From: Acidobacteria bacterium Ga0077522
Lineage (GTDB): Bacteria > Acidobacteriota > Vicinamibacteria > Vicinamibacterales > Vicinamibacteraceae
Direction: 5' to 3'
Length of the DNA: 60,179 nucleotides
NCBI GenBank assembly: GCA_001464065.1
Contig: LNDN01000036.1
Span: 1 to 60,179 of the forward strand
Shown here: positions 4,446 through 47,201 of the stretch, in pieces
Position numbering within the stretch: the first letter of the stretch is position 1
Layout of the letters: the number at the start of each line of letters is the position of its first letter
Made by a program: the position numbers and the translations under genes
The notes under the pieces: generated by a model
Databases searched by the model: none
Told to the model about the DNA's origin: nothing
The model's input: only the letters and a program-made list of their open reading frames with translations

Positions 4446-4467
4446 GCGTCGACCTTCAGGTCGACGC
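4446..4467. repeat. palindrome GCGTCGACCT-tc-AGGTCGACGC following GTAGG
   Basis: Perfect 10 bp arms with a 2-base loop, preceded by GTAGG (4442-4446). With the palindrome at 4492-4512 it forms a two-hairpin block downstream of the M23 gene. The same design, with different stem sequences, occurs at 40381-40468. Confidence 0.8.
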
Positions 4468-4491
4468 GCAGCCGCGTACTTCAGATGGGAG

Positions 4492-4512
4492 GGACGCCTC
4501 GGCGAGGCGTCC
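4492..4512 (-). terminator. stem-loop just past the M23 peptidase stop
   Basis: GGACGCCTC-ggc-GAGGCGTCC: perfect 9 bp arms with a 3-base loop, 7 bases beyond the stop of the minus-strand M23 gene. There is no T-tract, so intrinsic termination is uncertain. It may be one half of a two-palindrome repeat element. Confidence 0.45.
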
Positions 4513-20397: not shown

Positions 20398-21794
20398 GCG
20401 GGCCGCGGGCCTGGCTGGGATCCCTCTACTGGCGCATCGCGCTGGCGTGCCTCGGCCTGCTGGCCGCGGGCCTGGTCATCCAGATGGGCGTGGTTGTCGC
20501 GACGCTCTCGCGGCCCACGGGACTGCGCGCGCGGGTCACCGCACAGCAACTGGCCCGGACCGTCGCGCGTGACCTCGCCGAGACCCTCGAGTTCGACCCC
20601 GCCGTCGACGTGCGCGAGGTGCTCGCCCTGCATCAGGGGATGACGCTGCCCGTGTTCTTCGTGACCATCGAAGGCACGGTCACTGGCCCGGAGGACGAGC
20701 CCGTGCCGCCTCCGATGGCGCGGCGCATCGCTGGCGTGGCCCGCGAGTACGCCGAGGGCCTCGAGCGCGACGCGGTCCCCGTCGGCGTCGCCGCCGTCGA
20801 GGTGCTCGGGCAGACCGAAGGGCACATCGTGGTGCTGCCGCGGCGCCCGGGCTGGGCGGTCCTGCGCGAACTCGGCCCGCTGACCCTGGGCAGCGCCGCC
20901 CTCATGGCGATAGGCATCGCGGCCCTGCTGGCGTGGCTCGCCTTCGCGCCCGCGCACCGACGGCTGCAGGCACTCGAGGCGGCAGCCACGCGCCTCGGCC
21001 GCGGCGATCTCACGGCGCGTGCGCCCGAGGACGGGGCCGACGAGATCAGCCGCGTGTCACGGGCCTTCAACCAGACCGCCGACGCCCTGGCCACGCAGAT
21101 CCGGCGCGCGGCCTCGGAGCAGGACGTGCGGCGCCAACTGCTGGCCGACGTCTCGCACGAACTGCACACGCCGCTGACGACGATCCGGGGCTACGTCGAG
21201 ACCCTGCGCATGACCGACCTGCCGATCGGCGACGCCGACCGGGCCCGGTATCTCGGGGTGGTGGACGACGAAGCGGTGCGCCTCGAACACCTGATCGGGG
21301 ACCTGCTGGACCTCGCGAAGATGGAAGCGGGCGGGCAGGGGCTGCGCAAGGAGACACAGCCGATCCTGACGGCGTGGTCGCGCCTGCGCGACCGGTTCGG
21401 CCCGGCCGCGCATCACGCCGGCGTCACGCTGACGCTCGTGGAGTCGAGCCTCGCCGTTCACGCCGACCCCGGCCGCCTCGAACAGGCCCTGTCGAACCTG
21501 GTCGGCAACGCTCTGCGCTTCACCCCCGCAGGCGGCGAGGTGCGTGTCTCGGCGCATCCGCTGCCCACGGGCGGCGTCCGCATCGATGTCACCGATACCG
21601 GTGTCGGCCTCTCCGTCGACGACCAGGCCCGCGTGTTCGATCGGTTCTACAAGCAGGACGCGTCACGCAGCCGCAGCGGCACCGGTCTCGGCCTCTCCAT
21701 CGTTCGCGCCATCGCCGAAGCCCACGGCGGCACCGCCACCGTCGTCAGCACCCCTGGCCGCGGCAGCACGTTCAGTGTCGCGCTGCCGCCCTGA
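20394..21794 (+). CDS. sensor histidine kinase (HAMP-HisKA-HATPase)
   Basis: A 466-residue inner-membrane kinase: TM1 (14-38), a periplasmic domain (40-160), TM2 (162-185), HAMP (186-235), a HisKA domain with H255 in DVSHELHTPL, and a HATPase domain (NALRFTPAGG, DTGVGLS, GTGLGLSIV). All catalytic boxes are intact. It overlaps the response-regulator stop by 4 bases. The domain order is that of CpxA/BaeS-type envelope-stress kinases; with a Spy-like gene divergent upstream, an envelope signal is plausible, but the ligand is unknown. Confidence 0.96.
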   Translation: MSGPRAWLGSLYWRIALACLGLLAAGLVIQMGVVVATLSRPTGLRARVTAQQLARTVARDLAETLEFDPAVDVREVLALHQGMTLPVFFVTIEGTVTGPEDEPVPPPMARRIAGVAREYAEGLERDAVPVGVAAVEVLGQTEGHIVVLPRRPGWAVLRELGPLTLGSAALMAIGIAALLAWLAFAPAHRRLQALEAAATRLGRGDLTARAPEDGADEISRVSRAFNQTADALATQIRRAASEQDVRRQLLADVSHELHTPLTTIRGYVETLRMTDLPIGDADRARYLGVVDDEAVRLEHLIGDLLDLAKMEAGGQGLRKETQPILTAWSRLRDRFGPAAHHAGVTLTLVESSLAVHADPGRLEQALSNLVGNALRFTPAGGEVRVSAHPLPTGGVRIDVTDTGVGLSVDDQARVFDRFYKQDASRSRSGTGLGLSIVRAIAEAHGGTATVVSTPGRGSTFSVALPP

Positions 21795-21931
21795 GCCTTG
21801 GGCCCTGAGCCCTCGGCCTTCGTCCTTGGGCCTTCGTCCTTGAGCCTTCGTCCTTGGGCCTTCGGCCTTCGGTCTTGCGCCCTGAGCCCTGAGCCTTCGG
21901 CGATGAGCCCTGAGCCCTGAGCCCTGAGCCT
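21790..21931. repeat. long GAGCCCT/GGCCTTC heptamer repeat (family 1)
   Basis: About 140 bases of imperfect 7-base units (GAGCCCT, GGCCTTC, GTCCTTG), ending in three consecutive GAGCCCT copies. It lies in the convergent gap between the histidine kinase and the BON gene, right after a strong terminator read on the minus strand. Confidence 0.9.
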
Positions 21932-21932
21932 G

Positions 21933-21971
21933 AAAAAAAGCGCCCCGACCCAGGAAGGGAGGTCGAGGCGC
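21933..21971 (-). terminator. rho-independent terminator of the BON-domain gene
   Basis: On the minus strand GCGCCTCGACC, a 10-base loop and GGTCGGGGCGC are followed directly by seven T residues. One mismatch interrupts the 11 bp stem. It lies 33 bases after the BON stop and is the clearest intrinsic terminator in the window. Confidence 0.92.
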
Positions 21972-22777: not shown

Positions 22778-24025
22778 ATGTCCACGACGACGAGCTGGAT
22801 GGGATGGTGGTGGCAGGCGCCAGGCGATGCGAAGCGGGCGCTGTGGGCGGCGGCGCTCGGCTGGATGCTCGACGCGTTCGACGTGATGCTCTACGCGCTC
22901 GTGCTCACGGCGGTCATCGAGGATCTCGGCCTCACCAAGGCCACGGCCGGGCTGATCGGGTCGGTCACGCTGGTGGCGGCGGCGATCGGGGGCGTGGCAT
23001 TCGGCATCGTGGCGGACCGGTACGGCCGCACGCGGGCCCTGATGGGCAGCATCCTCATGTACTCGGTGTTCACTGCGATGTGCGGCTTCGCACAGACGGG
23101 GTGGCAGCTCGCGCTGTTCCGTATCGGGCTCGGTCTGGGCATGGGCGGCGAGTGGGCGAGTGGCGCCGCGCTGGTGGCCGAGACCTGGCCTGACGAGCAT
23201 CGTGGCAAGGCGCTCGGCCTGATGCAGAGCGCCTGGGCCGTCGGCTATGCCCTCGCGGCCATCGTCACCAGCGTGGTGCTGCCCGTGTGGGGATGGCGGG
23301 CGGTGTTCTTCGTCGGCGTCCTGCCGGCGCTCTTCACCGTGTGGATTCGTCGCGCGGTGCCTGAGCCGGCGGTCTGGCGCACGTCGGTTCGGCACGCGCC
23401 GCGCGCCGGTCTCGCGGCGGTCGTCGCCGACGGCCGACTCGGGCTGACCGTCGCGCTGGCGATGATGAACGCGTGCTGTCTCTTCGCGTGGTGGGGCTTC
23501 AACTCGTGGATTCCCGCCTATCTCTCGCTGGCCCCGGCGCAGGGCGGCATCGGACTCGACCCGCGCGCCATGGCGTGGCTCGTCGTCTTCATGCAGGTCG
23601 GGATGTGGTTCGGCTACGTGACCTTCGGCGCCGTGGCCGACAGCTTCGGCCGCAAGCGGACCTACGTGACGTACCTGCTGATGGCAGCGGTGCTGCTGGG
23701 CCTGTACGCCCAGGTGCGATCCCCGCTGGTGCTGTTGTGGCTCGGCCCCTTCGTCGCCTTCTTCGGCACCGGCTACTTCACCGGCTTCGGCATCGTGACG
23801 GCCGAGTCCTATCCGACGGCCATCCGCGCAACCGCGCAGGGGCTGACCTACAACACGGGGCGACTGGCGAGCGCGGCGGCCCCGTTCGTGGTGGGGTCGC
23901 TGGCCGACCAGCGCGGGTTCGCCCTGGCGTTCAGCGTGGTGGCCGCGGCGTTCGTCGTCGCCGCCTGCTGGTGGATCGTGATCCCCGAGACGCGGGGCCG
24001 GTCGGTCACAGCATCAGCAGCGTGA
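22778..24025 (+). CDS. MFS transporter (sugar/aromatic-acid:H+ symporter type)
   Basis: A 415-residue inner-membrane protein with about 12 helices. ATG 22778 was chosen because upstream in-frame sequence is non-membrane and proline/arginine-rich. LDAFDVMLYALVLT in TM1, GIVADRYGRTRAL in the first cytoplasmic loop, GEWASGAALVAE in TM4 and GAVADSFGRKRTY after TM8 are MFS signatures of the AAHS/sialate-type branch. The substrate is probably an organic acid or sugar. Its 3' end overlaps the convergent ZIP gene by 20 bases. Confidence 0.92.
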   Translation: MSTTTSWMGWWWQAPGDAKRALWAAALGWMLDAFDVMLYALVLTAVIEDLGLTKATAGLIGSVTLVAAAIGGVAFGIVADRYGRTRALMGSILMYSVFTAMCGFAQTGWQLALFRIGLGLGMGGEWASGAALVAETWPDEHRGKALGLMQSAWAVGYALAAIVTSVVLPVWGWRAVFFVGVLPALFTVWIRRAVPEPAVWRTSVRHAPRAGLAAVVADGRLGLTVALAMMNACCLFAWWGFNSWIPAYLSLAPAQGGIGLDPRAMAWLVVFMQVGMWFGYVTFGAVADSFGRKRTYVTYLLMAAVLLGLYAQVRSPLVLLWLGPFVAFFGTGYFTGFGIVTAESYPTAIRATAQGLTYNTGRLASAAAPFVVGSLADQRGFALAFSVVAAAFVVAACWWIVIPETRGRSVTASAA

Positions 24026-24746
24026 AGAGCCCGGCGCTGATGAGGAGCACCTGCGCCACCGGGTTCACTTCGACGTGGCCCTTGTGCAGGCTGGGGATCA
24101 GGTCCGACATCGCCACGTAGAGGAAGCTGCCGGCCGCGAAGGCGATGACGTACGGCAGCACGGTCGGCAACTGGTTCAGCGCCAGGTAGACGAACAACGC
24201 GCCGGCGAGGCCCCCGAGGCCCGACAACAGGTTGAGCGACAGCGCCTGCACCCGGCTGTAGCCCGCCTTCAGGAGAATCGCCGCGTCGCCGAGTTCCTGC
24301 GGGATCTCGTGGGCGGCCGCGGCGAGCGCCGTGGTCACGCCGAGCCAGGGTGAGGTCAGCGTGGCGGCCGCGATGATGGCGCCATCGACGAAGGTGTGGA
24401 AGGCGTCGCCGACGATGACGAGGCTCGCGGCGCTGCTGTGGACCTCGCACTCGTGGGTGTCGTGGCAGTGGCGCCACAGCACCAGCTTCTCGAGGATGAA
24501 GAAGGTGAGGATGCCGAGCAGGAGCGCACCGAGGGCCTTCTGCGCCGGCAGCGTCTCGAGCGCCTGCGGCACCAGGTGCAGCAGCGACAGGCCGAGCAGC
24601 GTGCCCACGGCGTAGCTGACCAGCCAGGCCACCAGCCGCTCGCGCGCCTCGTCTCCGAACAGGTAGATCGCCGACGCCACCAGCACGCCGAGGAAGCTGC
24701 CGGCGAGACTGAGGGCCATCGCGAGGACGAACGGAGACACGGTCAC
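24006..24746 (-). CDS. ZIP family divalent metal transporter
   Basis: A 246-residue membrane protein with about 8 helices. The metal path motifs are H117-x3-D121 in GDAFHTFVDG and H146-E147-x3-E151 in HEIPQELGD, the conserved TM4/TM5 ZIP site. A His/Cys-rich cytoplasmic loop (HCHDTHECEVH, 93-103) fits zinc or iron binding. It should import Zn2+, Fe2+ or a related metal. The GTG start at 24746 has no SD; a TATCAT hexamer 8 bases upstream lies in the loop of a perfect dyad, suggesting repressor control. Confidence 0.93.
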   Translation of the reverse strand: MTVSPFVLAMALSLAGSFLGVLVASAIYLFGDEARERLVAWLVSYAVGTLLGLSLLHLVPQALETLPAQKALGALLLGILTFFILEKLVLWRHCHDTHECEVHSSAASLVIVGDAFHTFVDGAIIAAATLTSPWLGVTTALAAAAHEIPQELGDAAILLKAGYSRVQALSLNLLSGLGGLAGALFVYLALNQLPTVLPYVIAFAAGSFLYVAMSDLIPSLHKGHVEVNPVAQVLLISAGLFTLLML

Positions 24747-24770
24747 GGGCAGTCATGATAACTGCCCGTG
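24744..24770 (-). promoter_or_regulatory. perfect 10+10 bp dyad overlapping -10 box and start codon of ZIP gene (putative metal-responsive operator)
   Basis: Arms CACGGGCAGT (24744-24753) and ACTGCCCGTG (24761-24770) flank a 7-base loop that contains TATCAT, read on the minus strand 8 bases before the GTG start. The start codon is itself the end of one arm. A repressor bound here would block the promoter; alternatively the transcript could fold over the start codon. It lies 45 bases past the VWA gene stop. Confidence 0.65.
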
Positions 24771-24815
24771 CCGGTCTGCCTTGCCGTGCGGAGGCGCGCC
24801 TCAGCCCCTGTCCCG

Positions 24816-25853
24816 CTACTGCGCGAGGTAGCCGCGCCGGGCCCGGACCTGGTAGCGGCCGCCGGGGACCTCGACCTCGATCTGGTGCCAGCGCCCGTCC
24901 TTGGCTCGTGGCGGCACGTAGCCGATCGAGTACTGCTGCGACAGCTCGTCGGCGATGCTGGCCGTGGCCGGATCGAGGTCGTTCGAGAAGCGGATGACCT
25001 CGGTGCGTCCGCCGCTGTCGTCGGTGATCGCCCGCAGCACGTCGACGTTGACGGCGTCGTTGGCGGCCGGCCGTCGGCTGGTGGTGCGCGGCTGACCCCA
25101 CGTGCCGCCCGTGCGCCCGCCCGGGAAGGGGAACGGGAAGGGCAGCTGGATCCGTGGCTGCCCCGACCACGTGCCTGGGCCGGAACTGCCGTAGCGGCCC
25201 GTGCCACCGACGTCGATGCCGATGGCGTAGACCAGCACTTCCGTTTCGCGGATCAGCGTCTGCAACGCGCGCGGGTCGGTCTGGCTGTCGGTGTCGTTGC
25301 CGTCCGAGATGACCACGACCGCCTTCTTCTTGTGCTGGCCCCCCTGGGCCATCGGCACCGCCTCGGCGACGGCGTCGTAGAGGGCCGTGCCGCCACGCGG
25401 CCGGATGCGGCGCAGGCCGTTGGCCAGCTGCTGGCGGTTGGTCGTCCAGTCGCTCACCAGGTCGGTCTGATCCGAGAAGCCGAGGATGAACACCTCGTCC
25501 TCGGGTGCCAGCAGGTCGTACATGAAGCGGTCGAGGGCGGACTGGGCCGCGCGGAACTTCTCGCCGGCCATGCTGCCGCTCACGTCGAGCACGATGCCCA
25601 GGCTGACCGGCACGCGCTCGCTGCTGAAGTGCGAGATCTGCTGGCGCTGCCCGTCCTCGCGGACGATGAAGTCCTCCTTGCGCAGGTTCGCTGCGAAGCG
25701 CCCGGTGCTGTCGGTCACGGTGGCCGTGACGTTGATCAGCTCGGTGGTGCTGCGAAACCGGAAACCATCCTGGGCGGCCAGCGGCGCGACGGCCACCGCG
25801 ACGAGTGCCGGCAGCAGCGAGGTGCGAAAGCGGGAGATGACGCGTGCATTCAT
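24816..25853 (-). CDS. secreted VWA-domain protein, acidobacterial TIGR03436 type
   Basis: A 345-residue exported protein (signal peptide ending APLAAQ). An N-terminal beta domain (30-80, VTATVTDSTGRFAANLRKEDFIVREDG) precedes a VWA domain with a complete metal site: D90-V-S92-G-S94 and T in GGTALYDAV, plus the ISDGND segment. This combination defines the VWFA family described from Acidobacteria. It is likely periplasmic and adhesive or complex-forming. ATG 25853 follows AGGGG. It is third in an operon after TonB and an unknown membrane protein. Confidence 0.9.
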   Translation of the reverse strand: MNARVISRFRTSLLPALVAVAVAPLAAQDGFRFRSTTELINVTATVTDSTGRFAANLRKEDFIVREDGQRQQISHFSSERVPVSLGIVLDVSGSMAGEKFRAAQSALDRFMYDLLAPEDEVFILGFSDQTDLVSDWTTNRQQLANGLRRIRPRGGTALYDAVAEAVPMAQGGQHKKKAVVVISDGNDTDSQTDPRALQTLIRETEVLVYAIGIDVGGTGRYGSSGPGTWSGQPRIQLPFPFPFPGGRTGGTWGQPRTTSRRPAANDAVNVDVLRAITDDSGGRTEVIRFSNDLDPATASIADELSQQYSIGYVPPRAKDGRWHQIEVEVPGGRYQVRARRGYLAQ

Positions 25854-25911
25854 GATCGGCCCCTGGTCACGACTGACGAACGAATCGACGCGGCGACGAG
25901 CGCGGCCACGG

Positions 25912-26787
25912 TCACGGCCGGGCCGTCCGACGGTCGGCGTGTGGCACCAGCGCGCCATCCACGCCACGGAACGTCACGCGGTAGCGGCGCACGTCCTTGT
26001 GTGAGGGCAACTCCGCGACGAAGCCGACCTCGTCACCCGGGCGCAGGCGGGTCGTCTCGAGCGGCGTCCGCGCACTGCCCAGGAAGCCTCCGGCCAGGTC
26101 GAGCAGCATCACGCTGGCCACCACGCCAGACCGGTCCGAGCCGGCCACCGGATTGCGGACGCGGCCCCGCACCACGAGCACACCGTCGCGCTGTTCGTGC
26201 GACAGCGACAGCAGCTCCAGCGGCATGCCGCCCACGGCCGCCGGCACCGTCGCCGGCGCCGTGCGTGCCTCCGTGCGGGCCTCCGTGGCCGTCGCGCCGG
26301 CCGGGGCGGGCGCTGGCGTTGGTCGGCCGAACAGGACGTAGCCCACCGCGATCAGCGCCACCAGCACGACCCCACCCAGAGCGATCGCGCCGCGCGCGTC
26401 CCCTCGGCGCGCCGCCGGCACGTCAGCGAACAACCCCGACGGTCGTGACGATGTCGCCGGCTCGTCCACGACCTCCGTGTCGGCGAGGTCGGGCTCGGTC
26501 GTCGTCTGCCACACGTGCGTCTCGGGCTCGTGCTCGCTCCGGAACGCCCGCACCTGACGCGTGTCGTCCTCGAGGTAGACGAGGGCTGGCAGCGGCGTCG
26601 GCGTCGGCGGCTTCGCCGGTGTTGGCCGCACGGGCGGATCCCAGTGGGTCGGTGTGTCGGCCTCGAGCGCGGCCGTCAGCAACTGGACGCGCGCGTCCGA
26701 GCGGCGCTGCTCGTCCTGGAGGAGCCGATAGGCGAACCAGCCGAGGCTGGCCGCCATCACGAGTGCGGCAATGGTCACAATCAACAT
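25912..26787 (-). CDS. membrane protein with two helices and C-terminal beta domain, unknown
   Basis: A 291-residue protein. TM1 spans residues 3-22 and TM2 134-153; between them is a Pro/Thr/acid-rich linker of about 110 residues. The C-terminal domain (190-291, ending in a VTFRGVDGALVP strand) has the look of a DUF3426/FxLYD Ig-like fold. No catalytic motif was seen. ATG 26787 has GAGGAA upstream. It sits 9 bases after the TonB-family gene and 58 bases before the VWA gene, so the three are likely one envelope operon. Confidence 0.7.
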   Translation of the reverse strand: MLIVTIAALVMAASLGWFAYRLLQDEQRRSDARVQLLTAALEADTPTHWDPPVRPTPAKPPTPTPLPALVYLEDDTRQVRAFRSEHEPETHVWQTTTEPDLADTEVVDEPATSSRPSGLFADVPAARRGDARGAIALGGVVLVALIAVGYVLFGRPTPAPAPAGATATEARTEARTAPATVPAAVGGMPLELLSLSHEQRDGVLVVRGRVRNPVAGSDRSGVVASVMLLDLAGGFLGSARTPLETTRLRPGDEVGFVAELPSHKDVRRYRVTFRGVDGALVPHADRRTARP

Positions 26788-26796
26788 GGCGATTCC

Positions 26797-27879
26797 TCAG
26801 CGCAGCGTGAATTCGACAGCGACTTCGACGATCACGTCGACGGGGCGCCCCTTGCGGGTCGCCGAGACGAAGGTCCAGCGGCGGACGGCCTGCACGGCCT
26901 GCTGGTCGAGCCCGGCCCCGAGGCCCTTGATGACCCGGACCTCACCCACGCGGCCATCGCGTCGGACGACGATCTCGAGCACCACTTCGCCCTCGAGCCC
27001 TCGTCGACGGGCGTCCTCGGTGTAGTCCGGCTTGACCTCGCTCACGAGTCGCGGTGGCTGGATGCCGGAGCCGGGCCGGAACGGTCCCCCGCCCTCGCCG
27101 CCGCCCTCACCCTCGCCGACTCCCGAGCCAGTCCCGGCCCCGAGCCCGGTGCCCGAGCCCGTGCCAGCGCCGCCGCCGTCACCCTGTCCACGGCTCGGCG
27201 GGGCCGCCGGCTTCTGCTCGAGCACGCCGGCCTGGGTCTCGGCGTCGTTGCTGCGCGCCACGATGGGCGCCTCCACCGGCGGCAACGGCTCGGGGGCCTT
27301 CGGCGTGGGCGGCGGTTCTTCCACCACCGGTGGCGGCTCGGCCGGCGGTGCCTGGCGGACCGGCAACGGGCTCTTCAGGGCGGACGTCCCTTCGCGCTTC
27401 GCCTGGACGGCCGGCGCCTTCATGCGCAGGCCGCCGCCGCCCCCACCGCCGCCGGGCCCCGGCAGGTTCAGGTAGACGAGCCGCATCTTCTCGGCCGGGG
27501 TGTCGATGAGGGTCGTGGCTGCAGACGATCCGAGCGGGACCAGCGTCGCGAGCAACAGTCCGCCGAGGACCACGCCGTGGACGGCAGCCGAGGCCGCGGC
27601 GGGCATGCTCGCGGAGCGCTGCGCCGCACGGGCACGACCGAACAGCGCGCCAGGCGTGGCCGTGATCGCCGCGGCGTTCGTCAGGCCGGGCAGCGGCACG
27701 CCCGATCGCAGACTCCGTGCGGCGCCGACGGCATCGTCGAACGCGACGAACTCGCCGTCGATGCTGCGAAGGGCCCCGGTGGCAATCAGATCGGCCACCG
27801 CGCGCGGATGTGCCCCCGAGGCGCGGGCGATGTCGCGGGCAGTGAAGACGTCAGGCAGCGGGCGCGGTGTCAGTGGCAT
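26797..27879 (-). CDS. TonB family protein with N-terminal helix-turn-helix-like segment
   Basis: A 360-residue protein. The C-terminal 85 residues are a TonB C-terminal domain (VKPDYTEDARRRGLEGEVVLEIVV, RRWTF), which contacts TonB boxes of outer-membrane receptors. The single membrane helix is at 97-117, followed by a Gly/Pro-rich periplasmic spanner (130-270). Unusually, about 95 residues precede the helix on the cytoplasmic side and read like an excisionase/MerR-type DNA-binding helix-turn-helix (TARDIARASGAHPRAVADLIATGAL). It is first in the operon with the 291-residue protein and the VWA protein. No exbB or exbD is present. Confidence 0.85.
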   Translation of the reverse strand: MPLTPRPLPDVFTARDIARASGAHPRAVADLIATGALRSIDGEFVAFDDAVGAARSLRSGVPLPGLTNAAAITATPGALFGRARAAQRSASMPAAASAAVHGVVLGGLLLATLVPLGSSAATTLIDTPAEKMRLVYLNLPGPGGGGGGGGLRMKAPAVQAKREGTSALKSPLPVRQAPPAEPPPVVEEPPPTPKAPEPLPPVEAPIVARSNDAETQAGVLEQKPAAPPSRGQGDGGGAGTGSGTGLGAGTGSGVGEGEGGGEGGGPFRPGSGIQPPRLVSEVKPDYTEDARRRGLEGEVVLEIVVRRDGRVGEVRVIKGLGAGLDQQAVQAVRRWTFVSATRKGRPVDVIVEVAVEFTLR

Positions 27880-27978
27880 CTCTGGACCCCAGTGGGGAAG
27901 TGGACGCCACCTCTCAGCGCAACTTGCGTGCCTGCCCTGCGTGTCCTCTCTCGGGGACGCCGCGGAGGCCTACACCGC

Positions 27979-28527
27979 TCAATCCGGGGCGGATTGGCCC
28001 TTCAGCGCTTCGACGATGGCGACGCCGTCGCGCTCGAAGAGGATGCGTGCCCCGCGGAAGCGGGTACTGGTGGCCGCGTGGACCTCGGCAGGGGACGGCG
28101 CACCGGGGACCTTGAGTCGCACGACCAGCACCACCCGGCCGCCGGGGCGGAGGATCCGACGGAGTTCAGGGAGGAGCGCGGCGAAGGGCGCGGAGGCCGC
28201 ATCGACGAGGGCGAGGTCGAAGTCGGCGTCCTCGAACGGCAGGGTGGCCAGCGGCGTCTCCACCACCTCGACCAGGACGCCGATCGCCTCGGCGGCGGCC
28301 TCGAGGCGCTGTGTCTCGTCCGGAGCGGCCGCGCACGCCACGGCACGGCCGCTCAGCCCGGTCACTCTGGCGATGGCGGCCACGAGGCCCGGGTCGCCGC
28401 TGCCCACGCTGACCATGCGGTCGCCGAGCCGCGCCCCGATCATCCGGGTCAGCAGCTCGTACCGGCCGGGGTCGCCGCGCAGCCAGCGCACGAGGATGTT
28501 GGAGGCAAGGACGTCGGAGAGGCCCAC
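27979..28527 (-). CDS. putative class I SAM-dependent methyltransferase
   Basis: About 182 residues. VSVGSGDPGLVAAIA fits motif I, an acidic strand end lies in FDLALVDAASAPFAALL, and ILRPGGRVVLVVRL is the post-II/III region of Rossmann methyltransferases. Motif I is GSGDPG rather than the common GxGxG, so cofactor binding is likely but not certain. The GTG at 28527 is preferred over GTG 28533 because a TAGTCT hexamer ends 6 bases before it. It is separated from the TonB operon by 99 bases. Confidence 0.65.
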   Translation of the reverse strand: MGLSDVLASNILVRWLRGDPGRYELLTRMIGARLGDRMVSVGSGDPGLVAAIARVTGLSGRAVACAAAPDETQRLEAAAEAIGVLVEVVETPLATLPFEDADFDLALVDAASAPFAALLPELRRILRPGGRVVLVVRLKVPGAPSPAEVHAATSTRFRGARILFERDGVAIVEALKGQSAPD

Positions 28528-28533
28528 GCCCAC

Positions 28534-40380: not shown

Positions 40381-40468
40381 GGTAGGGCCGGCTCTCCGAG
40401 CCGGCCGTCATCGACAGCGCGTGATGCTCGCCGCTTGGTGGCGGCCCGTTCGGAGAACGGGCCCTACC
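40381..40468. repeat. REP-like double-palindrome element (GTAGGGCC...GGCCCTAC)
   Basis: Outer inverted ends GGTAGGGCC (40381-40389) and GGCCCTACC (40460-40468). Inside are two hairpins, GGCCGGCTC-tcc-GAGCCGGCC (40386-40406) and GGCCCGTTC-gga-GAACGGGCC (40443-40463), with complementary loops. The dppF stop codon (TAG, minus strand) is part of the right end. Confidence 0.88.
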
Positions 40469-44498: not shown

Positions 44499-45853
<1,355 letters not shown>

Positions 45854-45917
45854 GGGCCCTGGGCCCTGGGCCTTCGGCCTTGGTTCTTCGAGCCCTGAGC
45901 CCTGAGCCCTGAGCCTT
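45854..45917. repeat. GGGCCCT/GAGCCCT heptamer repeat (family 1)
   Basis: GGGCCCTGGGCCCTGGGCC then GAGCCCT repeated three times, filling the spacer between glgC and eno. Confidence 0.88.
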
Positions 45918-45920
45918 GTT

Positions 45921-47201
45921 TTATCCGTGCTGCCCGCGCGCGTCGGCTTCCTGCTCGCGCTGGCGTTCGGTCTCCTCCGGCGTCGCCACGAACGGCTCTT
46001 CGTCGGTGGTCACCACCACCACGCCCTTGGCGGTGACGGTGTGCCGCTTGCGATCCTCCTCGAGGTCGTAGCCGATGATGGCGCCCCGCGGGATGAACAC
46101 GTCCCGATCGATGATCGCGTTGCGGATCCGCGCGTGCCGGCCGACGCGGACGCCCGGCATCAGGATACTGCGCTCGATGTCGCAGTAACTGTGCACGCGG
46201 ACGTTCGGGCACAGGATGCTGCCCCGGACCGAACTCCCGGAGACGATGACGCCGGACGAGATGATCGAGTCGAGGGCGTGCCCTCGTCGTCCCTCGTCGT
46301 TGAAGACGAACTTGGCCGGCGGCGCCTGCGGCATCCACGTCCGGATCGGCCACTCGGGGTCGTACAGATTGAAGTCCGGGTTCACCTGCACGAGGTCCAT
46401 GTTGGCCTCGTAGTAGGCATCGAGCTCGCCGATGTCGCGCCAGTACTTGTTGGCCTTCTTGTTCTCGTCCGAGAACCGGTACGAGTAGACCGGCGCGTGC
46501 CCGATCAGCGACGGCAGGATGTCCTTGCCGAAGTCGTGCTTGCTGTCACGGCCGGCGTCGTCTTCGAGCGCCTTGATGAGGACGTCGGCCTCGAAGACGT
46601 AGATGCCCATCGAGGCCAGGGCCACGCCGGGCATGCCCGGGATCGGCTTGGGCTCGGCCGGCTTCTCCTCGAAGCCGATCAGCCGTTCCTCCTCGTCGAC
46701 CTGGATGACCCCGAAGCGGCGGGCGGCCTCCTCGACCGGCACCTCGTAGGTGGCGACCGTCGCGGCGGCGCCCTTCTCGATGTGCCAGCGCAGCATCTTC
46801 GAGTAGTCCATCTTGTAGATGTGGTCGCCCGACAGGATGACGACCCGGCTCGGCGACTCGCGAACCACCGAGTACAGGTTCTGATAGACGGCGTCGGCCG
46901 TGCCCAGATACCAGTTGTCGCTGACCCGCTTCTGGGGGGGCAGGATCTCGATGAACTCGCCGAGTTCCTCGGCCACCACGCTCCAGCCCTGCCGGATGTG
47001 GCGGTTCAACGACAGGCTCTTGTACTGCGTCACGATGAAGATGCGGCGCAGCCCGGCGTTGATGCAGTTGCTGAGGGTGAAGTCGATGATGCGGTACGGC
47101 CCGCCGAAGTACACCGCCGGCTTGGCGCGTTCCCTGGTGAGCGGAGAGAGGCGTTCGCCAACCCCCCCGGCCAGGACGATGACGAGCGAGTCATTGAGCA
47201 T
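45921..47201 (-). CDS. glgC: glucose-1-phosphate adenylyltransferase
   Basis: A 426-residue enzyme making ADP-glucose for glycogen. LAGGVGERLSPLTRERAKPAVYFGG is the nucleotide-binding start, followed by RIIDFTLSNCINAG, WYLGTADAVYQN, SGDHIYKMDY and FEEKPAEPKPIP. The C-terminus is a left-handed beta-helix (residues 310-405). In the nucleotide loop GGVGERL has Val where most GlgC have Arg. It is divergent from the exported protein gene; no glgA or glgB lies here. Confidence 0.94.
   Translation of the reverse strand: MLNDSLVIVLAGGVGERLSPLTRERAKPAVYFGGPYRIIDFTLSNCINAGLRRIFIVTQYKSLSLNRHIRQGWSVVAEELGEFIEILPPQKRVSDNWYLGTADAVYQNLYSVVRESPSRVVILSGDHIYKMDYSKMLRWHIEKGAAATVATYEVPVEEAARRFGVIQVDEEERLIGFEEKPAEPKPIPGMPGVALASMGIYVFEADVLIKALEDDAGRDSKHDFGKDILPSLIGHAPVYSYRFSDENKKANKYWRDIGELDAYYEANMDLVQVNPDFNLYDPEWPIRTWMPQAPPAKFVFNDEGRRGHALDSIISSGVIVSGSSVRGSILCPNVRVHSYCDIERSILMPGVRVGRHARIRNAIIDRDVFIPRGAIIGYDLEEDRKRHTVTAKGVVVVTTDEEPFVATPEETERQREQEADARGQHG

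Follow-up and report, generated by a model that had tools for sequence, protein, structure and literature searches.

Results

The window, that is, the whole stretch of 60,179 nucleotides that was analysed, is one of the 429 contigs (number 36) that make up a genome of 5.44 Mb (G000) from a genus of the Acidobacteriota, class Vicinamibacteria. It was compared with four genomes of the same genus (G001 to G004); the nearest of these, G001, is a single contig of 7,480,314 bp whose ZIP protein is 94% identical to that of the window. The gene of interest codes for a ZIP metal transporter of 246 residues (24006..24746, minus strand; PF02535, E 2e-29). The NCBIfam model nearest to the protein is ZupT, with a score below the cut-off of that model, and a PDB sequence search with the protein returned nothing at E ≤ 0.001. 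Upstream of ZIP, in the same direction, lie a VWA-domain gene of the acidobacterial VWFA subfamily (24816..25967, minus strand; PF13519, TIGR03436 above its cut-off) and, at 25912..28533 on the same strand, the genes for a protein without Pfam match, a TonB-C protein and a methyltransferase. The spacer between VWA and ZIP measures 69 nt (24747..24815, minus strand) and is more structured than its own shuffles. At the other end of the gene, ZIP and a convergent MFS reading frame share 20 bp at their 3' ends (24006-24025).

A 27-nt dyad occupies the border between VWA and ZIP (24744..24770, minus strand). Read from 24770 to 24744, the minus strand is CACGGGCAGT-TATCATG-ACTGCCCGTG, with the 5' arm at 24761-24770, a 7-nt loop, and the 3' arm at 24744-24753, the last three letters of which are the GTG start codon of ZIP (24744..24746), conserved in 5/5 same-genus genomes. 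The arms are exact over 10 bp and 12 of the 13 positions about the centre at 24757 are paired; when mismatches are allowed, the arms extend to 18 nt with 83% of the positions paired. This is the longest perfect dyad of the window for loops of 3-9 nt, but its length alone is unremarkable, because 30 dinucleotide shuffles of the window contained on average 1.7 dyads of at least 10 bp with such loops. Since 10-bp dyads are expected by chance, position and conservation are what count.

The region 24600-25000 had no match in Rfam at E ≤ 1. Nor does the dyad form a REP-like dispersed family, being single-copy in the genome at 0-2 mismatches, with two more copies at 3. Other repeated elements were observed in these genomes. 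At 4446-4512 and 40386-40463 the window contains pairs of short perfect hairpins, with distances of 46 and 57 nt; related motifs, GGACxGCTC-n3-GAGCxGTCC and CCGTCGACC-n4-GGTCGACGG, which have several intergenic copies in the G001 sample, make up a REP-like family. Tracts of units of about 7 nt (CCTGAGC, CTTGGGC, CCTTCGT and the like) fill spacers of the window at 21769-21944, 2519-2618 and 45837-45945, and similar heptamer tracts lie upstream of ZIP in distant relatives (L022, L028, L031).

The hexamer TATCAT in the loop (24755..24760, minus strand) stands 8 nt before the GTG, its first base being 14 nt before it, and has the form TANNNT near a start codon. As given in the accessible part of Zheng et al. 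(2011, PMC3160421), leaderless bacterial genes carry TANNNT about 12 nt before the start, and leaderless genes were found in three of three Acidobacteria genomes, with an average of 13.3%. Comparison of ZIP promoters points the same way. Ninety-four ZIP loci were used, and removal of one without a match (L241) and of 12 exact duplicates gave 81 distinct promoters, a small number of which belong to second ZIP copies or to distant ones; L064-L113 (50 loci, mostly labelled gammaproteobacterial) and L039, whose match begins at a contig end, were left out of the count. TANNAT lies 4-10 nt before an in-frame start in 66 of the 81 promoters and TANNNT in 70, the best pair of hexamer and start being taken for each sequence, a choice which favours finding a box; the start codon is GTG in 65 of the 70 called ZIP starts. 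TANNAT itself is found at only 315 sites on both strands of 1.14 Mb. In eight of the 66 promoters the VWA stop codon is part of the box (spacer -3).

The five genomes of the genus agree without exception in TAT.AT and CGTG. At codon 3 of ZIP, three of the four relatives have GTC instead of GTG, which supports the GTG start named here. TATCAT is thus very probably, on the comparative evidence, the -10 box of ZIP, a gene with no leader or almost none, and the 5' end of the ZIP mRNA very probably falls at the GTG or within a few bases of it. Since this mRNA is predicted to begin at or next to the GTG, the hairpin could not form in it. In the first-pass annotation this place had been described as an exact 10-bp dyad with a presumed -10 box in its loop and the start of a ZIP transporter at its end, and all three elements of the description stand. 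The gene resembles known leaderless systems (PMC3160421; the -10-motif promoters of Deinococcus, PMC12340547) in its box, in the distance to the start and in its missing leader; it differs from them in the dyad around the box, none being described in the accessible parts of these two papers, and the string 'palindrom' does not occur in the accessible main text of PMC12340547. A literature search with Luteitalea pratensis and transcriptome brought up, in the accessible parts of what it returned, no transcript map of that species.

Perfect arms of at least 8 bp around the hexamer are confined, among the 315 TANNAT sites (1.14 Mb of this genome and of G001), to the two ZIP promoters. These still rank first and second when mismatches are tolerated (scores 10.8 and 8.8), but three other sites are close behind (8.6, 8 and 8). 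Among 27 leaderless candidates from the same 1.14 Mb, perfect arms reach 10 bp at the ZIP gene of the window and 8 bp at that of G001, and at most 4 bp in the remaining 25. The local RNA fold from -45 to +6 has a stability of -23.8 kcal/mol, which was equalled by 1 of 200 shuffles. Besides the ZIP genes, two of the 27 candidates pass p ≤ 0.05, one of them with a strong stem in G001, and the location of the -10 box in a hairpin is no general rule for leaderless genes. A leaderless candidate near 5,074,070 of G001 (L175) has its -10 box in a hairpin that reaches the GTG (-24.2 kcal/mol, p 0.003).

Between the window and G001, 6 of the 27 positions of the dyad differ, and the differences amount to two compensatory pairs, one central base and one outer break. 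As much pairing was kept in 0.8% of trials when six changes were placed at random, and in 17% when random bases were put at the same six positions. In G002 the stem is a different one, of 13 bp with one bulge. Constrained folding of the -10 dyad, compared with versions in which the left flank alone was shuffled, gave p values of 0.003 for the window, 0.007 for G001, 0.013 for G002, 0.65 for G003 and 0.375 for G004, whose stem is strong (-20.8 kcal/mol) yet not better than those of its GC-rich shuffles. Taken together and without the window, the four relatives give p 0.006, and a dyad around the box recurs in two of them, with different arms. The ZIP locus of G003 (L169:9650-9760) has no dyad and is arranged differently: the methyltransferase gene is followed by ZIP with no VWA gene in between, and its stop codon overlaps the -10 box.

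At the level of the order there is no enrichment: of the 66 promoters tested, the 15 of 81 without TANNAT having been excluded, 7 have a dyad at p ≤ 0.05, with a Fisher combined p of 0.22. Because the relatives combine to a significant value while the test on 66 promoters is negative, the dyad, as judged from sequence, belongs to some members of the genus and turns up sporadically in distant species; it is not an element of the whole order. The absence of the dyad from related ZIP promoters, a possibility raised earlier, is therefore observed in part: some same-genus promoters do possess it, but with other arms. When the promoters are stratified by the distance from VWA stop to box, a division chosen after the data had been seen, the dyad is found in 0 of 12 with less than 10 nt and in 6 of 28 with at least 10 nt; without the window the latter class retains 5 of 27 at p ≤ 0.05 (binomial p 0.010), its combined test gives p 0.079, and a rank test comparing it with the short-distance promoters p 0.26.

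The structure of the spacer as a whole was then considered. The 69-nt spacer of the window folds at -37.7 kcal/mol, with p 0.013 when the dyad is included and p 0.35 without the -10 box and what lies downstream. Of 26 spacers with at least 20 nt from VWA stop to box, 15 are more stable than their shuffles at p ≤ 0.05, or 14 of 25 when the window is left out; since their species are related, the 26 do not count as wholly independent. Control spacers, taken from G000 and G001 only with a simple gene caller (gaps of 45-180 nt, 40 shuffles against 150) and possibly containing the VWA-ZIP spacers of these two genomes themselves, are structured in 34 of 58 convergent, 43 of 193 co-directional and 4 of 55 divergent cases. 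The VWA-ZIP proportion of 14/25 departs from the co-directional one (Fisher p 0.0007) and not from the convergent one (p 1.0). In this respect VWA-ZIP spacers resemble convergent gene ends and are unlike divergent spacers.

The position of the structure varies between species. Folded alone, the part upstream of the box is structured in 11 of 26 spacers; 5 of 25 have a significant -10 dyad, L023 having no TANNAT and hence no dyad test; both conditions coincide in none. The probability of no overlap is 0.046 for n = 26, and about 0.04 without L023. For G001, folding predicts further, weaker hairpins in the stretch that separates VWA from the -10 dyad, and that stretch, taken by itself, is no more structured than its shuffles (p 0.17). 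The 24-nt flank of G002, folded alone, forms a strong local stem; in the minimum-energy fold of its full 273-nt spacer the local -10 hairpin is absent and the 3' arm is paired far upstream, with the GTG still paired.

A terminator scan of 24000-26500 detected no canonical intrinsic terminator, and the stem of the dyad has no T-run. Most hairpins at gene ends of this genus lack T-runs: in random samples of 20 from the 34 convergent and 20 from the 43 co-directional cases, an A/T-rich flank was present in two of each. U-less or I-shaped 3' stem-loops are known in GC-rich bacteria, according to the accessible parts of reports on Streptomyces clavuligerus (PMC8269248) and on hairpins without poly-U (PMC8355165). 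The dyad shares with the stem-loops described there a stable GC stem past a stop codon and the lack of a U-tract; it stands, like them, between a stop codon and the next gene, and its stability exceeds what its composition explains. It differs from those described there in that its loop holds the -10 box of the next gene and its 3' arm the start codon.

Discussion

The model we propose, to which we assign a probability of roughly 0.42, is that the palindrome forms a stem-loop without a U-tract at the 3' end of the VWA operon, and that this stem-loop coincides exactly with the leaderless promoter of ZIP. The stem-loop is proposed to be either terminator-like or of an exonuclease-stopping type. 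Transcripts of the VWA operon that reach the spacer would form the hairpin, which would set the 3' end of the VWA RNA by termination or by protection. In read-through RNA, the GTG of ZIP would be buried in the 3' arm. The ZIP transcript itself would begin inside the 3' arm and, because the 5' arm is missing from it, would escape the hairpin and be free for translation. The ZIP output would then be set by its own promoter and insulated from VWA read-through. The promoter part of this account is well supported by comparison; its 3'-end part relies on structure statistics, some of them post hoc, and the effect on translation is what we infer. Besides the spacer statistics, the model is favoured by the pairing kept in G001 and G002 under a changed stem sequence, by the absence of the dyad where the VWA stop is less than 10 nt from the box, and by the frequency of gene-end hairpins without T-runs. 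Against it count the missing T-run of the dyad itself, the weaker hairpins of G001, the whole-spacer fold of G002, the values for G003 and G004, the negative test on 66 promoters, and the combined and rank tests of the class with at least 10 nt. A terminator for the VWA operon was among the alternatives offered by the first-pass annotation, and it is the one best supported here, by the proportion of structured spacers, the likeness to convergent controls and the alternative placement of the structure, with the reservation that the stem is U-less. The other alternative, a hairpin hiding the start codon, would apply to read-through RNA and not to the own mRNA of ZIP, because that mRNA is predicted to begin inside the 3' arm.

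Taken to its full extent, the model would have a single palindrome perform three jobs: ending the VWA RNA, presenting the -10 box in its loop, and locking the start codon in read-through RNA. The combination would act as a filter on transcript origin, only own-promoter transcripts being translated because the downstream transcript begins inside the 3' arm. We regard this fuller version as rather doubtful. In a narrow text search of the literature for the overlap of a promoter and a terminator, the one match listed concerns yeast, and we make no claim of priority.

The reading preferred by the first-pass annotation was that of an operator for a metal-sensing repressor. In the broader form considered here, a homodimeric repressor, metal-sensing or not, would bind the palindrome, cover the -10 box and shut off ZIP. 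In favour of this, the dyad of both the window and G001 is centred at -11, on the -10 box, the core GGNCAGNTATNATGNCTGNCC is common to these two species and to no other of the five, and the 7-1-7 core CAGTTAT-C-ATGACTG has what we read as a Fur-like geometry. Candidate regulators are encoded in the genome, namely two genes of the Fur family (PF01475) and two of the DtxR family (PF02742), one DtxR gene being nearest to the MntR models, below their cut-offs. One of the Fur-family genes encodes a protein with a C-terminal rubrerythrin-like domain (L269:964-1950; the domain was tested for in this genome only) and the other lies near a peroxidase gene; long Fur frames, of 327-416 aa, are present in the four same-genus relatives. 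A metal regulator is on hand in the genome, yet nothing links one to the dyad. By eye, the upstream regions of the Fur and DtxR genes and of the second ZIP gene contain no copy of the ZIP dyad.

The search for further copies of the site in the genome and its relatives, suggested earlier, does not bring out a regulon, whether the arms of the window, those of G001 or a composite core are used. Other genome copies of the window dyad were not found below 3 mismatches. The composite 21-mer, searched on both strands, stays close to its reversed control (12/12 in G000, 21/15 in G001, 12/9 in G002 and 7/9 in G004), save in G003, where 18 matches against 3 would speak for an operator. The G001-arm pattern has more matches than its reversed control in all five genomes, an excess which we discount because this pattern is a GC palindrome that picks up a dispersed repeat. 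Around the site, invariance across the five species is limited to TAT.AT, CGTG and, in the left arm, C..GG. Comparison with ten consensus sites agrees with the earlier statement in that no known metal box is clearly matched: eight scores were equalled by at least 97 of 300 shuffles, and the two others, Fur (10/19, 18 of 300 shuffles as good) and PerR-like (8/14, 0 of 300), are borderline and owe their scores, in our reading, to the AT-rich -10 box itself, which they overlap. Like the Fur, Zur and DtxR/MntR operators, the dyad is a palindrome over the -10 box of a metal transporter; unlike them it has no clear consensus match, no regulon, and arms mostly unconserved in the genus. We consider an operator improbable.

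It is similarly unlikely that the dyad is a product of chance and common descent, in a spacer rich in GC, and has no role beyond that of the promoter. The number of 10-bp dyads in shuffled windows, the lack of order-wide enrichment and the 17% of trials that keep the pairing when the six changed positions are held fixed would suit such an origin. It is opposed by the combined value of the four relatives (p 0.006), by the 0.8% obtained when the six changes are placed at random, and by the singularity of the two ZIP promoters, the only ones among the 27 leaderless candidates with perfect arms longer than 4 bp.

Least probable of all is a translation lock acting only in VWA read-through RNA, with neither termination nor 3'-end protection: the GTG is fully paired in the predicted local stem of the window, G002 and G004 and partly in that of G001, and the ZIP mRNA is predicted without the 5' arm, but this reading leaves the structure upstream of the -10 box in other species unexplained, the whole-spacer fold of G002 loses the local stem though its GTG is still paired, and translation of read-through RNA might be poor anyway because no SD-like motif is seen by eye before the GTG.

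The proposed 3' stem-loop over a leaderless promoter bears on a general feature of such genes. Leaderless genes adjoin their promoters, and read-through from upstream can consequently yield leadered copies of the same message. If the model is true, the cell could separate the two transcripts by structure alone, thanks to a hairpin that covers both -10 box and start codon. For annotators it would also be a warning that a palindrome on a -10 box need not be a repressor site, and the class of the spacer together with compensatory changes can help to tell RNA hairpins from operators.
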